Origin: Pseudorhodobacter turbinis | Lineage (GTDB): Bacteria; Pseudomonadota; Alphaproteobacteria; Rhodobacterales; Rhodobacteraceae | DNA length: 64,000 nt | Reading direction: 5' to 3' | Assembly (NCBI RefSeq): GCF_005234135.1 | Contig: NZ_CP039965.1 | Coordinates: forward strand, 1,417,501 to 1,481,500 | In this document: positions 26,641 through 59,598 of the stretch, one piece after another | Layout of the letters: the number at the start of each line of letters is the position of its first letter | Numbering within the stretch: the stretch's first letter is position 1 | Made by a program: the position numbers and the translations under genes | Notes under the pieces: generated by a model | Seen by the model: the letters and a program-made list of their open reading frames with translations, nothing else | Database searches by the model: none | Told to the model about the DNA's origin: nothing

Positions 26641-27498
26641 TTAGAGCATCAATGCGTTGTGTCCTAAGAAAATTTCTTCGTTGAAAACATATGGCTGATC
26701 GCGCATCTCGCATTCTGAAATTCTATTCTCATGGGTTCTTAGAATACTATTATACAACTCGAATGAACCTCTGAAAAAGAGTAATCCGTCCTTCTTCAAA
26801 AGCTCCATAGCGCCAATAAAAAATTGAAGATCGTAGGCCAGTTTGTGAAACGCATAAGAAAGCCTTCCGGTCATGAGAGCAGCATTACTTGCATCCTTAG
26901 GCTTTTCCAAAAGAGACAGTGTTTCGCACACCAATGACAATGTAACAAACGAGTGAAACCTAACAACAGTTCCCATTTCTTCGGGCGTGCGGTCATGATG
27001 ATCGACAGAGAAAGATGACGCGGTTCTTGCGTCCACATACAAAGAGCAGTTTCTACTTATTGAATCTACAGTGGCATGCCCTGCTTGATGAACTAGTTCC
27101 TCCAAGATATGATATGGACCGCTTTGCTGTTCGATGTTTATGAAAATTACTCTTGGAAGCTGTGGGTGGTAGAATGAATTTCTCGCGGTGCTCCTAAAAA
27201 TTACTACATGGTCAACGCACAATTCCAGCAAAGAAGAGATGCCATTTAGAGCAACTTGCCCATGAAGCATATTCAAAGCGGACATCACAGAATTCTCAGA
27301 GTTAATTTCCCACTTCGGATCATTAATTGATTCGAAGCCTCCATTCGTTAAGAGCCAGAACTTTTTATTTGTGCAATTATCTGACAAATCCAAACATTCG
27401 ACACAGCCACGAAGTTGTGAATCTAGCATGGAATGTTCACGCTCAAATACGGTAGGTGTTCGCAGCTTCTGTAACAGTAGCTGCGAAGGCTTGTTCAA
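26641..27498 (-). CDS. Putative peptide-modifying protein, HExxH-hydroxylase-like (EExxH variant)
   Basis: A 285-aa protein from TTG 27498, two bases after the 75-aa gene, with AAAGGAG inside the end of that gene as ribosome site. The recognisable core is ILEELVHQAGHATV (E133-E134-L-V-H137, then H141) and, 40 residues later, a further ligand candidate in TVVRFHSFVTL (H182). This resembles the HExxH-motif proteins of RiPP clusters, now known as 2-oxoglutarate-dependent peptide beta-hydroxylases, except that the first His is Glu. It has no signal peptide; C32 and C35 form a CxxC near the N-terminus. The whole cassette is visibly more AT-rich than its surroundings, suggesting transfer. The function is inferred, not established. 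Confidence 0.55.
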   Translation of the reverse strand: MNKPSQLLLQKLRTPTVFEREHSMLDSQLRGCVECLDLSDNCTNKKFWLLTNGGFESINDPKWEINSENSVMSALNMLHGQVALNGISSLLELCVDHVVIFRSTARNSFYHPQLPRVIFINIEQQSGPYHILEELVHQAGHATVDSISRNCSLYVDARTASSFSVDHHDRTPEEMGTVVRFHSFVTLSLVCETLSLLEKPKDASNAALMTGRLSYAFHKLAYDLQFFIGAMELLKKDGLLFFRGSFELYNSILRTHENRISECEMRDQPYVFNEEIFLGHNALML

Positions 27499-27499
27499 G

Positions 27500-27727
27500 T
27501 TAAGCTCCTTTGGGGGAGGGGAGACCTAGCAGCTTGTCCAAGTCTTTGAAAACCTGTTCCAGTTCAGGGATCCATATACCGGTCTGTTTCTGAATTATAA
27601 CGTGGCACGCCTCATACCCTTTTCCCGCCAGCATATCCGACGTTAGTCGTTCTCGGACTTCTTTGGGCATATCAAAATTTGCAATTTCTGTCAGATGAAT
27701 TTCAACAGGTTTAAATCCTTCTTTCAT
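27500..27727 (-). CDS. Small protein coupled to the HExxH-like gene; possible substrate or partner
   Basis: A 75-aa protein from ATG 27727, with GGAGAGAATT just upstream. It reads MKEGFKPVEIHLTEIANFDM, then PKEVRERLTSDMLAGKGYEA, one Cys, and ends GLPSPKGA. No family is recognised. Its leader-like helical N-terminus, small size and tight coupling to the downstream gene fit a precursor peptide or a small binding partner, but there is no obvious repetitive or Cys-rich core. The frame stays open to 27778, but the upstream starts lack a ribosome site. Confidence 0.6.
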   Translation of the reverse strand: MKEGFKPVEIHLTEIANFDMPKEVRERLTSDMLAGKGYEACHVIIQKQTGIWIPELEQVFKDLDKLLGLPSPKGA

Positions 27728-27914
27728 AATTCTCTCCATGAATCTTTCATTGTGAACGATCTTATTAGTAGTGCACAACTTTAAGTAAAAAGATACAAAT
27801 TAGTTTCTAGCGCGGGTAAGTAAGTTTTCTTCGTTGTCTAAATTTATAGTGTTTAATAGGTGTTGTTCAGGTTTTCGTAAATTTATCAAGTAAATGAGCG
27901 TATGCTGTTGCAGT

Positions 27915-27933: not shown

Positions 27934-28084
27934 CTTTTTGGCGCTCTTATGATAGCTGACATCCATACATCACGCAGCATCCGTCAATCAGGGCTCGAAC
28001 CTGCCGTTAGCCACGCTGTCCATGAAGGTTCGATTCGGAAGCGGCGGCGCTGTGTGCCGCGTCCCTTCAGAAGATGACCGGGCC

Positions 28085-28611: not shown

Positions 28612-29925
28612 TCAACGCTTGGCGTCGGTCGCAGCTTTTTTGGCGGCGGCAATGATCGGGCTGTCTTTGGCGACCGCCGCTGCCGGGGCGGTCGCGACAA
28701 TGCCAGCAGCATCACTGCGGGCGGCAAGGTCGGCCAGCACGCGCGCGCGCAAGGCTTCGGGCTTCAACCCGCGTGATACCGCGTCGGCAGCGTCGATGGA
28801 CACACCCAGTCGGGCGGCCTGAGCACAGACTTGCGCCACCTCGGCCGCCTCGGCGCGCACGGCGTCGACAGTCATCGTGGTGGCGTCTGAGGTGATCGCG
28901 CTCGCAGCGATGGTCGGTTCGGTTGCGATTGGTGCTGCGGCAAGTGGTGCTGAGTTCGGGGTGTCGGCGGGCGTGGTGGTCATCGTTGGACCCTTTCTGT
29001 TGGAGGAAGTGGTGTCGCGCGGGGCGGCAGCGAAAGCGCGGAAGGCGGTGACGGGATCCGCAAGTTCATCGGCAAGACCGACGGCAATGGCATCGGCGCC
29101 GCGGAACACAGCTGCTTCTGTGGCAAGTGCCGCCGCTTGGCTGAGGCGATCCCCACGACCTGCGGCGACGGTTTCTGCAAAGAGGAAGCGGACGACCTCC
29201 AGTTCACGCTGCATCTGGTTATGCACGGCCTCGGGCAGGGGCTGGTAGGGATTGGCGTCAATTTTGTGCACGCCCGCATGGATCAGCGTGACGGCGATGC
29301 CCTTTTGATCCAGCGCGCCGCTCATGTCGGTGTGCAGGGCGACCACGCCGATGCTGCCGACCGCCCCGGTGCGCGGTAGAATGATGCGGTCCGCCTGAGA
29401 CGCCAGAACGTAGCCAGCTGACAGGGCGTGTTCAGCGATGAAGGCGTGGACCGGCTTTTGCGCTCGGGCGGCACGGATGCGATCCGCCAGATCGAAGGCC
29501 CCGGCGACCTCACCTCCAAAGCTGTCGATATCCAGCGCAATCCCACGCACGCCGGGATCCGCGATAGCCGCCTGCAATTGTGCCGCGATGCCCTCGTAAG
29601 ACGTCAGGCCCGAAGATTGCCCGATCCAGGCGCCACGGTGCACAAGTGTGCCCGCGATTTCGATCACGGCAATGCCGTCGACCACCGGGTAGGGTTGGCT
29701 GCCGTTGCGCTGGTGACGCTGGGCGAGATCATTGCCGAACAGCGAAGCGCGGGCCGGGAGGGCAGCTGCAGCTTGGTCTTCTGCCACCGCCTCCAGCCCT
29801 TGGAAGGTGACCTCCTGCCCGGTGATGCGTGGCCCCAGCCCGGACAGGAACGCCAGCGCCTTGGCTGGGTCCACCATCAGGGGCGTGTTGAAGGCGCGCT
29901 GGGCGATCTGCGCGTGGTGCATCAC
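28612..29925 (-). CDS. Phage S49-family head maturation protease/scaffold (SppA/ClpP-like)
   Basis: A 437-aa protein. The N-terminal two thirds form a serine protease of family S49: IEIAGTLVHRG, LDIDSFGGEVAGAFDLAD and the nucleophile Ser in EHALSAGYVLASQADRI, then GAVGSIGVVALH. The Ala/Thr-rich C-terminus (from about residue 310) is a scaffold-like extension. This gpC-type layout serves prohead assembly. The start overlaps the portal gene stop by 4 bp. The gene itself looks intact although its neighbours are not. Confidence 0.88.
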   Translation of the reverse strand: MMHHAQIAQRAFNTPLMVDPAKALAFLSGLGPRITGQEVTFQGLEAVAEDQAAAALPARASLFGNDLAQRHQRNGSQPYPVVDGIAVIEIAGTLVHRGAWIGQSSGLTSYEGIAAQLQAAIADPGVRGIALDIDSFGGEVAGAFDLADRIRAARAQKPVHAFIAEHALSAGYVLASQADRIILPRTGAVGSIGVVALHTDMSGALDQKGIAVTLIHAGVHKIDANPYQPLPEAVHNQMQRELEVVRFLFAETVAAGRGDRLSQAAALATEAAVFRGADAIAVGLADELADPVTAFRAFAAAPRDTTSSNRKGPTMTTTPADTPNSAPLAAAPIATEPTIAASAITSDATTMTVDAVRAEAAEVAQVCAQAARLGVSIDAADAVSRGLKPEALRARVLADLAARSDAAGIVATAPAAAVAKDSPIIAAAKKAATDAKR

Positions 29926-30825
29926 GGTTCATCCTTCGGGTCGGATTTGTCTGCAGCGTCATCCGGCGCATTGTCGTCTGCGTTGTCGTCAGGCTTGCCG
30001 TCTTTGCTACTTGCAGCACCCGGTCCCTGCGCCGGGGATCCCGGACGGCGGAAGTCGAGGCCCAGCGCCAATTCGCGTTTGCGCTCGGCAGCAATTTCGC
30101 GGTCGACCTGTTCGGCGTCATAGCCACGTTCAGAGATGGCCTGCGTGCGAGATTTCAGCCCGGACTCGATCTGCAGGATCTCGGCGGAGGCGTCCTTCAT
30201 CGGGTCGATCCAGTCCCATTTTGTCGGCAACCATGTGCAGGACTGATATTGCCGCCGCTGGCTGTCATAACCGGGAAAATCAATAGCACCGGACAGCACC
30301 GCTACATCCATCCATCGGGCCCAAACCGCACGACACAGCTGGAACACCAGCACGCCATGCTGCCAGGCCGAGATGCGGCGGCGGAATTCGATCAGGGAAA
30401 TCCTCGTGTTGGAGAAATTGCCCTTGGCGGTGTCGCCGGTCAGATAGCCATAGGGGATGCCGAGTGCGGCTGCGATTTGCAGCAGGGTTCGGTATTGGAA
30501 TGGCTCGTAGGTGCCGCCGGAATCCGGGGTGGCGGGCGTCGAGATATCCTCGCCGGGATCCAGCCGTACCACTTGGCCAGGCTCAACCTCCAGATCCTCG
30601 TCGGTCGGGTCCAGCGGCGTTTCCGGGGCGGGTGAAGTGATGAACATAGCGAACATAGCAGCGATCTTTTTGCGCTCCAGCTCTGCATCGTCGTAGAGGT
30701 CCAGCGTGAACAGTTTCACGATGGCAGCGGCAAAACGTGACACGCCGCGCAACTGGCCTGCTTCGACCGGGTCCATCACATGGATCACATCCACGGCGGG
30801 AACACGGACGGTCTCATTGGTGATC
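29922..30825 (-). pseudogene. Lambda-type phage portal protein, N-terminus lost
   Basis: The reading frame from about 30825 (ITNETVRVPAVDVIHVMDPV) to 29922 holds the C-terminal portal domain: GQLRGVSRFAAAIVKLF, LLQIAAALGIPYGYLTGD, ISLIEFRRRISAWQHGVL and WDWIDPMKDASAEIL. Portal proteins are normally about 500 aa; some 200 N-terminal residues are replaced by a ParB-like gene start. The acidic C-terminal tail (DDNADDNAPDDAADKSDP) is usual for the family. Confidence 0.82.
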
Positions 30826-31521: not shown

Positions 31522-31785
31522 ATGAAAATGACCAGATATAGCGAACCCCAGATCCTTGCGATCCTGCGCCAAGCCGAAGGTGGTGTGCCGGTGGCCGAGC
31601 TTTGCCGTGAACATGGCATGAGCAATGCGTCGTTTTACAAATGGCGTGCGAAGTATGGTGGCATGGATGCATCCATGGTCAGCCAGATGAAAGCCATGGA
31701 GGAAGAGAACCGCAGGCTGAAGCGGATGTATGCAGATCTGAGCATGCAGGCGGACTTATTGAAGGAAGCCCTCGGAAAAAAGTAA
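31522..31785 (+). CDS. IS3-family transposase OrfA (copy 2)
   Basis: Same 87-aa protein as at 2365, including the terminal AAAAAAG slippery heptamer and the downstream hairpin for -1 frameshifting. Confidence 0.92.
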
Positions 31786-31808
31786 CGGGGCCATCTCAGC
31801 GCCGCGAG

Positions 31809-32609
31809 ATGGCCGAAACGGCGGTAGAGCGACGGGGCGTCAGCATCGCGCTGGCGTGCCGGGCCTTCGAGGTCAGCGAGACCTGCTATCGTTACAGCCC
31901 GAAGCTGAAAGACGAGAACGAGGTGATCGCCGATCTGCTGACAGGGCTGACGGATGCGCGCAAGACTTGGGGATTTGGCCTGTGTTTCCTGCATTTGCGC
32001 AACGTGAAGGGGCATCCGTGGAACCACAAGCGGGTCTACCGGATCTACTGTGAGCTGGAACTGAACCTGCGCATCAAGCCGCGCAAGCGGCTGAAACGGG
32101 AGAAGCCTGACGTTCTGGCGGTCCCGAACAGACCGAATGTGACCTGGTCCATGGACTTCATGGCGGATCGCCTCGGCGACGGCAGGGCTTTTCGGCTTTT
32201 GAATGTGTTGGACGACTTCAACCGCGAAGGGCTGGGGATCGAGGTTGATTTCTCGCTCCCTGCCGAACGGGTCATCCGCAGCCTTGATCGCATTATCGAA
32301 TGGCGCGGAAAACCGGGCACGATCAGGGTCGACAATGGGCCGGAATATATCAGCGAAACACTGAGAAAATGGGCTGAGAAACATAGTGTTACGATCCAGC
32401 ACATCCAACCCGGACAGCCCCAGCAGAACGCCTATGTCGAGCGCTACAACCGGACGGTTCGGCATGAATGGCTGGATCAATACATCATCGAAAGCATCGA
32501 GGAGGCTCAGGATCAGGCCACACAATGGCTCTGGACATATAACAACGACCGCCCGAACATGGGCATCGGCGGCATCACACCCGCTATGAAACTGAAAATG
32601 GCCGCGTAA
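31809..32609 (+). CDS. IS3-family transposase OrfB (copy 2)
   Basis: Same protein as at 2652, with an intact DDE triad, expressed as an OrfAB fusion by frameshifting. Confidence 0.92.
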
Positions 32610-59346: not shown

Positions 59347-59411
59347 ATCAGTCTCTCCGGACCGCCCACCCGGCGGCCATGGGTGCCGGATGCTCCGGCG
59401 TTGCGTTTCAG

Positions 59412-59573
59412 AACGGCAGGTCTCCTGACTTGCGGGTCATCGCGGTTCTGGCCCTTCCCGGCCCAAAGGGGCCAGTGGTTTTGCCAGTCTCGCTATCCGC
59501 CTACAGTTGCGGGGGCAGTCGGGGCTTTTCACCCCGTTCCCTTTTGATCCCTCTCGGGAACCGTTCGAGGTTT
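59412..59573 (-). ncRNA. Cobalamin (B12) riboswitch
   Basis: On the minus strand the conserved elements occur in order: AAAGGGAACGGGGTG, GCCCCGACTGCCCCCGCAAC, then AGCGAG and CCACTGG, GGGAAGG, GATGACCCGCAAG and the B12 box GTCAGGAGACCTGCC. It ends about 65 bp before the CbiM-like gene, which with cobF should be repressed by adenosylcobalamin. Confidence 0.92.
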
Positions 59574-59598
59574 ACTATGACGCCAAGTGACCGGCGTT

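Follow-up and report, generated by a model that had tools for sequence, protein, structure and literature searches.

Analysis of a 64,000-nucleotide stretch of the Pseudorhodobacter turbinis genome (hereafter the window) revealed two adjacent genes, coding for a 75-amino-acid (75-aa) protein and for a 285-aa protein that is related in profile and fold to the HExxH peptide hydroxylases but carries HQxxH at the corresponding position. The pair recurs in three other loci, one of which is a Mu-like prophage. We consider the chances about even that it represents an HQxxH iron enzyme that would modify its conserved partner, both travelling as mobile cargo. The enzyme belongs to a known kind, of which it is a new and very rare variant, and its partner is conserved.

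The small gene comes first, and a single base pair separates its TAA stop from the TTG start of the 285-aa gene, whose ribosome-binding site lies within the 3′ end of the 75-aa gene (Table 1). This coupling had been described in the first-pass annotation of the sequence, as had the location of the pair in an AT-rich patch between a DUF305 gene and phage debris, and both descriptions hold. The G+C (guanine plus cytosine) content is 44.9% in the 75-aa gene and 41.9% in the 285-aa gene; the two kilobase bins that contain them have values of 0.443 and 0.410, while the remaining 62 bins of the window range from 0.51 to 0.66. One flank is the DUF305 gene, and on the other Pfam recognizes a lambda-type head protein D, an S49 peptidase and a portal piece.

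The family was opened through the 75-aa partner and not through the 285-aa protein. A search with the 75-aa protein returned P0003 (72%) and P0004 (61% in the search row, 58% aligned) as close relatives, and the profile of these sequences led to a Roseitalea sp. metagenome-assembled genome (MAG; locus L004) and a Phyllobacteriaceae MAG (L005) in genome_contigs, and to L006 in viral contigs. The small gene is followed by the large one, in the same order, in all four readable loci (the window, L004, L005 and L006; the contigs of P0003 and P0004, at most 4,375 and 1,040 bases long, stand outside this count). Since three other loci contain homologous pairs in this order, the association is more than chance, and the question raised earlier of whether a 75-aa-type partner is kept in other genomes is answered in the affirmative. 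In L004 and L005 the two genes overlap by GTGA; in L006 a gap of about 60 bases separates them, provided that the ATG at 2271 is the start. The large proteins of these three loci are 20–37% identical to the window protein, and that of L006 is recorded as a hypothetical protein of Sinorhizobium meliloti (20 contigs). In both MAGs, the pair has a conserved divergent neighbor (L004 5314-5703, 129 aa; L005 5299-5820, within a 173-aa open reading frame, ORF), for which no Pfam match above cut-off and no homologue in the window genome were found.

Within the reach of these searches, the HQxxH family looks rare. The 285-aa protein retrieved only itself from 5.8 billion proteins, in a search that detects only relatives sharing exact 5-residue words, and only its own genome among 295 genomes of the family (1/295); scans of genome_contigs and viral_contigs with it found no homologue, and tblastn on plasmids and phages no relative beyond itself. 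The small-protein profile matched 59 of 394 family genomes at E ≤ 1, all except its own at E 0.0098 or weaker, and 1/289 class genomes, again its own; the large-protein profile matched 2/385 class genomes, its own and one partial match (E 0.0024). None of these surveys added a member. Three further viral scans returned the L006 contig only, and when the 5.8 billion proteins were searched by profile, the window protein and the S. meliloti protein alone were retrieved. In total, four enzyme sequences were found.

The stretches ILEELVHQAGH and VRFH, picked out in the first-pass annotation, are indeed present in the 285-aa protein. Its reading of the motif as EExxH, in which the first His has become Glu, was set in the wrong register: in the profile alignment ELVHQAGH falls opposite ILAHECGH of the HExxH references, which rules out EExxH and identifies the motif as HQxxH, with Glu replaced by Gln. 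This position is Gln in 4/4 members versus Glu in 12/12 references. The reference set leaves out L003, L048 and L049, which score 20.8, 21.7 and 21.1 bits against TIGR04267 (cut-off 40), and one Photobacterium tblastn match; it includes L051 and L052 as tblastn relatives of the Pantoea protein, without TIGR04267 scores of their own. The ligand set proposed earlier stands: H137 and H141 are invariant in the four members and lie opposite His in all 12 references, and H182, the candidate third ligand, is likewise invariant and lies opposite His in 10. The four large proteins further share E133, E134, Q138 and H167, with R212, K219, D223 and Q225 among additional common residues. Position 134 is Glu in every member and in none of the 12 references, and position 133, also Glu in every member, is acidic in nine of them. 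In the structure model, positions 134 and 138 share a predicted helix (128-148) with i/i+4 spacing, so that the acidic group may have shifted by one helical turn, to Glu134. The SPLR...RP stretch of the references is missing from the HQxxH lineage; H167 stands near this site, in a part where the alignment is loose. In a literature search, HQxxH did not occur in any of the six listed out of 16,054 papers, which is not proof of absence.

Profile and fold both match the 285-aa protein to the aKG-HExxH peptide beta-hydroxylases (TIGR04267 / mod_HExxH; ChlB 8s5f, PflC, PosC, PesO and BpmH), in keeping with the kinship first suspected from the sequence. Homology and fold are shared with the solved HExxH domain of ChlB (Foldseek E 1.9e-5), and the overall fold and the placement of the three His are common to the group. 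The window enzyme differs from it by HQxxH, by the added Glu134, by the lack of SPLR...RP, by falling under family detection, and by a partner that is conserved and not variable. The TIGR04267 profile check suggested in the first-pass annotation gave no row over the NCBIfam cut-off (40 bits) for the window protein, L004, L005 or L006, nor for any protein of the window genome. Because the protein does not reach this cut-off and lacks the HExxH motif, we claim kinship and fold but not TIGR04267 membership. Taken as a whole, the earlier observation is confirmed and its interpretation is supported in part. The absence of a family from the VIA-align fold list carries no information. SjiH (PDB 22ob, Ni-bound) is about 10% identical to the window protein over the aligned part, and its PDB entry is a radical SAM core domain-containing protein whereas the window protein stands alone.

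In zincins, the Glu of HExxH serves as the general base. Its replacement by Gln in all four members argues against a zincin peptidase that would cut the small protein or another target, an interpretation that we consider highly improbable; zincin peptidases do occur in the fold lists, but at lower rank, the best Foldseek peptidase row being 5nie at E 0.53. In its favor, PflC, an HExxH relative, also hydrolyses truncated peptides (PMC12636437). Judging from the Gln, this lineage may have lost such PflC-like hydrolysis. The loss of Glu could also mark a catalytically dead HExxH protein that serves as a binding protein, which we find unlikely. NCBIfam contains a “lost HExxH” extension form of FxsBH that L006 matches weakly (E 0.11, far under cut-off, over residues 56-118, outside the motif), and the absence of the SPLR...RP stretch is consistent with an inactive site. 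However, loss of the ligands would be expected of a dead site, whereas H137, H141 and H182 are retained in four divergent proteins.

Besides M1, the six small proteins share L12, E14, C41, H42, T49, G50, I51, W52, P54, E55, L56, V59, F60, D64 and L67. Conservation spans residues ~10 to 70, and only the first ~9 residues and the last few vary, contrary to the suggestion that the C-terminus might vary more than the N-terminus. Between L004 and L005, nonsynonymous (dN) and synonymous (dS) divergence are 0.029 and 0.90 for the small gene (dN/dS ~0.03), and 0.404 and 2.87, the latter near saturation, for the large gene (dN/dS ~0.14). The small partner is the more constrained member of the pair and is under strong purifying constraint. 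Its conservation exceeds that of the enzyme, so it does not qualify as a classic precursor, with a variable core, of a ribosomally synthesized and post-translationally modified peptide (RiPP). A conserved leader followed by a variable core, as in RiPP precursors, is not found; a small gene beside a modifying enzyme, the other RiPP hallmark considered, is present in the four readable loci. This constraint is at odds with a diversifying RiPP core; it would suit either a fixed-function substrate or an adaptor. Several references also have a short gene directly before the enzyme gene, as the window pair does: among ATG-started ORFs read by eye, a short ORF ends within ~110 bases upstream of 7/12 HExxH genes (L002, L042, L043, L044, L047, L050 and L051; one more in L041 was judged non-coding). 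Five of the seven begin with an LDxxKL-like stretch, to which the 75-aa protein has no clear counterpart. In L047 (374-682, oriented), the predicted short protein contains His-rich stretches and, as judged by eye, likely carries a signal peptide. The profile of the small proteins weakly matched an engineered cytochrome c555 trimer (E 0.0043), with no single stretch reaching significance; we took this as chance around “ACH”, as there is neither CxxCH nor a visible signal peptide.

Two of the four loci adjoin or lie inside phage DNA. The window cassette abuts a decayed prophage, in which the portal gene (29922-30794) retains only its C-terminal half (Pfam positions 193-354 of 354); nearby, at 31522-32609, is a transposase that we read as probably of IS3 type. 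L006 is a Mu-like prophage that shares 80–81% identity over ~3.5 kb with Sinorhizobium phages StopSmel and Aussie, and it has S. meliloti pSymB-like DNA at 1-438. Its cassette is bounded on the left by a 33-bp match (L006 1611-1643 = StopSmel 312-344) and on the right by matches before the c repressor, from 3814. The corresponding slot at the left end, from the phage end to the c repressor, contains two small ORFs in StopSmel and a PARIS-like AriA-AriB pair in Aussie (AriA E 1.5e-30, AriB E 8.2e-18; L068 566-2772, OR786373.1, two genes annotated as hypothetical). The AriA-AriB proteins are unrelated to those of the HQxxH pair, and PADLOC found 0 families for the window small and large proteins and for the L004 and L006 large proteins, so that the pair was not identified with a known anti-phage defense system. 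Near L004 and L005 no phage gene was seen, Pfam having been applied to four proteins (three of L004, and one of L005 that had no match); one of the L004 neighbors is an M24 peptidase-family protein ~0.5 kb beyond the pair. In our reading, no transporter or protease recurs beside the pair in all four loci; the M24 peptidase and the S49 phage peptidase (~1 kb from the window pair) are not counted in the unit because neither is common to all of them.

The left-end slot was surveyed by eye from 26 phage loci plus StopSmel, Aussie and L006, shorter ORFs being mostly omitted. This yielded 36 proteins from 18 loci, namely 35 left-end ORFs of 17 related phages (Aussie included) and the L006 enzyme, with no proteins from L071, L072, L074, L076, L077, L079, L084, L089, L091, L093 and StopSmel; the ORFs may include host genes or repressors, and L087 639-1340 and L095 4-819 are repressor-like. 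At least two of the 36 match AriA-type ATPase models at 1e-5, among the matches listed (25 of 100 families). One is Aussie AriA; the other we infer to be L075 1740-3332, whose start appears ATPase-like. By phmmer, Aussie AriA and AriB matched no other slot member. The start of L070 1909-2982, in the equivalent region of a related Mu-like phage, presumably resembles a DUF4062 domain. Antiviral hotspots including PARIS are described for P2-like phages and P4 satellites (PMC9122126).

Two other interpretations involve phages. The pair could be a toxin-antitoxin-like module carried by prophages, with a small antitoxin encoded first and a large metal-dependent toxin second. Size and gene order resemble what is generally known of type II modules, and half of the loci are associated with phage DNA; yet the window pair has no family match in NCBIfam, Pfam or PADLOC and the fold match is to a peptide hydroxylase, which makes this quite improbable. 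Alternatively, the pair may serve immunity or lysogenic conversion as a module carried by phages: the HQxxH iron enzyme, with its acid at Glu134, would activate the small protein post-translationally in the lysogen and protect the prophage host from competitors. We regard this as rather unlikely.

According to the model that we favor, the 75-aa partner would be made first, with the enzyme translationally coupled to it. The latter would be a mononuclear iron enzyme with the fold of the HExxH peptide hydroxylases, its motif altered to HQxxH and its iron most likely held by H137, H141 and H182. We infer that it most likely acts on its own partner, oxidising one or more residues, with invariant H42, P54 and D64 as candidate sites. 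In PMC13060819 and PMC12636437, the peptide residues that HExxH enzymes oxidise are His, Asp, Phe, Gln or Pro. Because no signal peptide was seen by eye on the small protein and no transporter or protease is common to the four loci, the modified product probably acts inside the cell. The pair would move as mobile-element cargo; in one locus it occupies the phage slot that in a sister phage holds a defense gene pair.

Several points weigh against this model. The enzyme comparison rests on four sequences, none of which has an NCBIfam or Pfam match above cut-off, and the L005 member, taken by itself, aligns only weakly to the references (probability 20). The structure model of the 285-aa protein is modest (mean predicted local distance difference test, pLDDT, 65.5; predicted template modeling score, pTM, 0.69) and that of the small protein is poor (pLDDT 58.2, pTM 0.34). 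The lack of the defining Glu and of the SPLR...RP stretch may mean a different mode of cosubstrate binding or a loss of activity. The slot survey weakens a “defense slot” to an accessory slot, occupied in at least one phage by AriA-AriB; the phage-defense idea is drawn from a single slot of a single phage group and is not our conclusion. Finally, the small proteins of L004 and L005 are 93.4% identical and the large ones 54.4%, unlike a usual RiPP precursor and its enzyme. This disparity, together with the lower dN/dS of the small gene and the conservation of the central and C-terminal part of its product, would suit a binding partner or activator, the enzyme modifying another host or phage protein. 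We hold this adaptor role to be possible but doubtful, as the gene order is that of precursor then enzyme and the characterized HExxH relatives in PMC13060819 and PMC12636437 act on a peptide from the same cluster.

HExxH peptide hydroxylases are a recently recognized class whose motif includes the Glu that is replaced here. A lineage with the three His kept, this Glu replaced and a Glu added one turn away would test the role of that residue, and might allow oxygenase activity to be separated from residual peptidase activity. A fixed conserved partner and a slot shared with AriA-AriB would link HExxH chemistry to phage–host conflict, a link of which we found no mention in the literature searched.

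Table 1. Features of the gene pair in the window
Feature	Position	Strand	Basis
75-aa small conserved protein gene (ATG start, stop included)	27727-27500	minus	homologues P0003, P0004, L004, L005, L006
285-aa HQxxH enzyme-like protein gene (TTG start, stop included)	27498-26641	minus	homologues L004, L005, L006
GGAGAG, ribosome site of 75-aa gene	27732..27737	minus	sequence
AAAGGAG, ribosome site of 285-aa gene, inside 3′ end of 75-aa gene	27511-27505	minus	sequence
TAA stop of 75-aa gene	27502-27500	minus	sequence
TTG start of 285-aa gene	27498-27496	minus	sequence
Codons E133 and E134; E134 lineage-specific	27097..27102	minus	4/4 members vs 0/12 references at 134
Codons H137-Q138-A139-G140-H141, aligned to HExxH	27076..27090	minus	alignment
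Codon H167, invariant in 4 members, non-His in references	26998..27000	minus	alignment, uncertain here
Codon H182, candidate third ligand	26953..26955	minus	4/4 members; His in 10/12 references

Directly 3′ of the phage head gene D lies a 74–108 bp element (window 27949-28063), which ARAGORN did not recognize as a tRNA. The same genome contains two more strong copies (95% and 83% identity) and a third, weaker one. The element also adjoins gene D in relatives G296 and G302, in which no cassette DNA was matched, a protein-level search with the cassette not having been made. Elsewhere in the window, a cobalamin riboswitch is located on the minus strand at 59398-59580 (131.7 bits).
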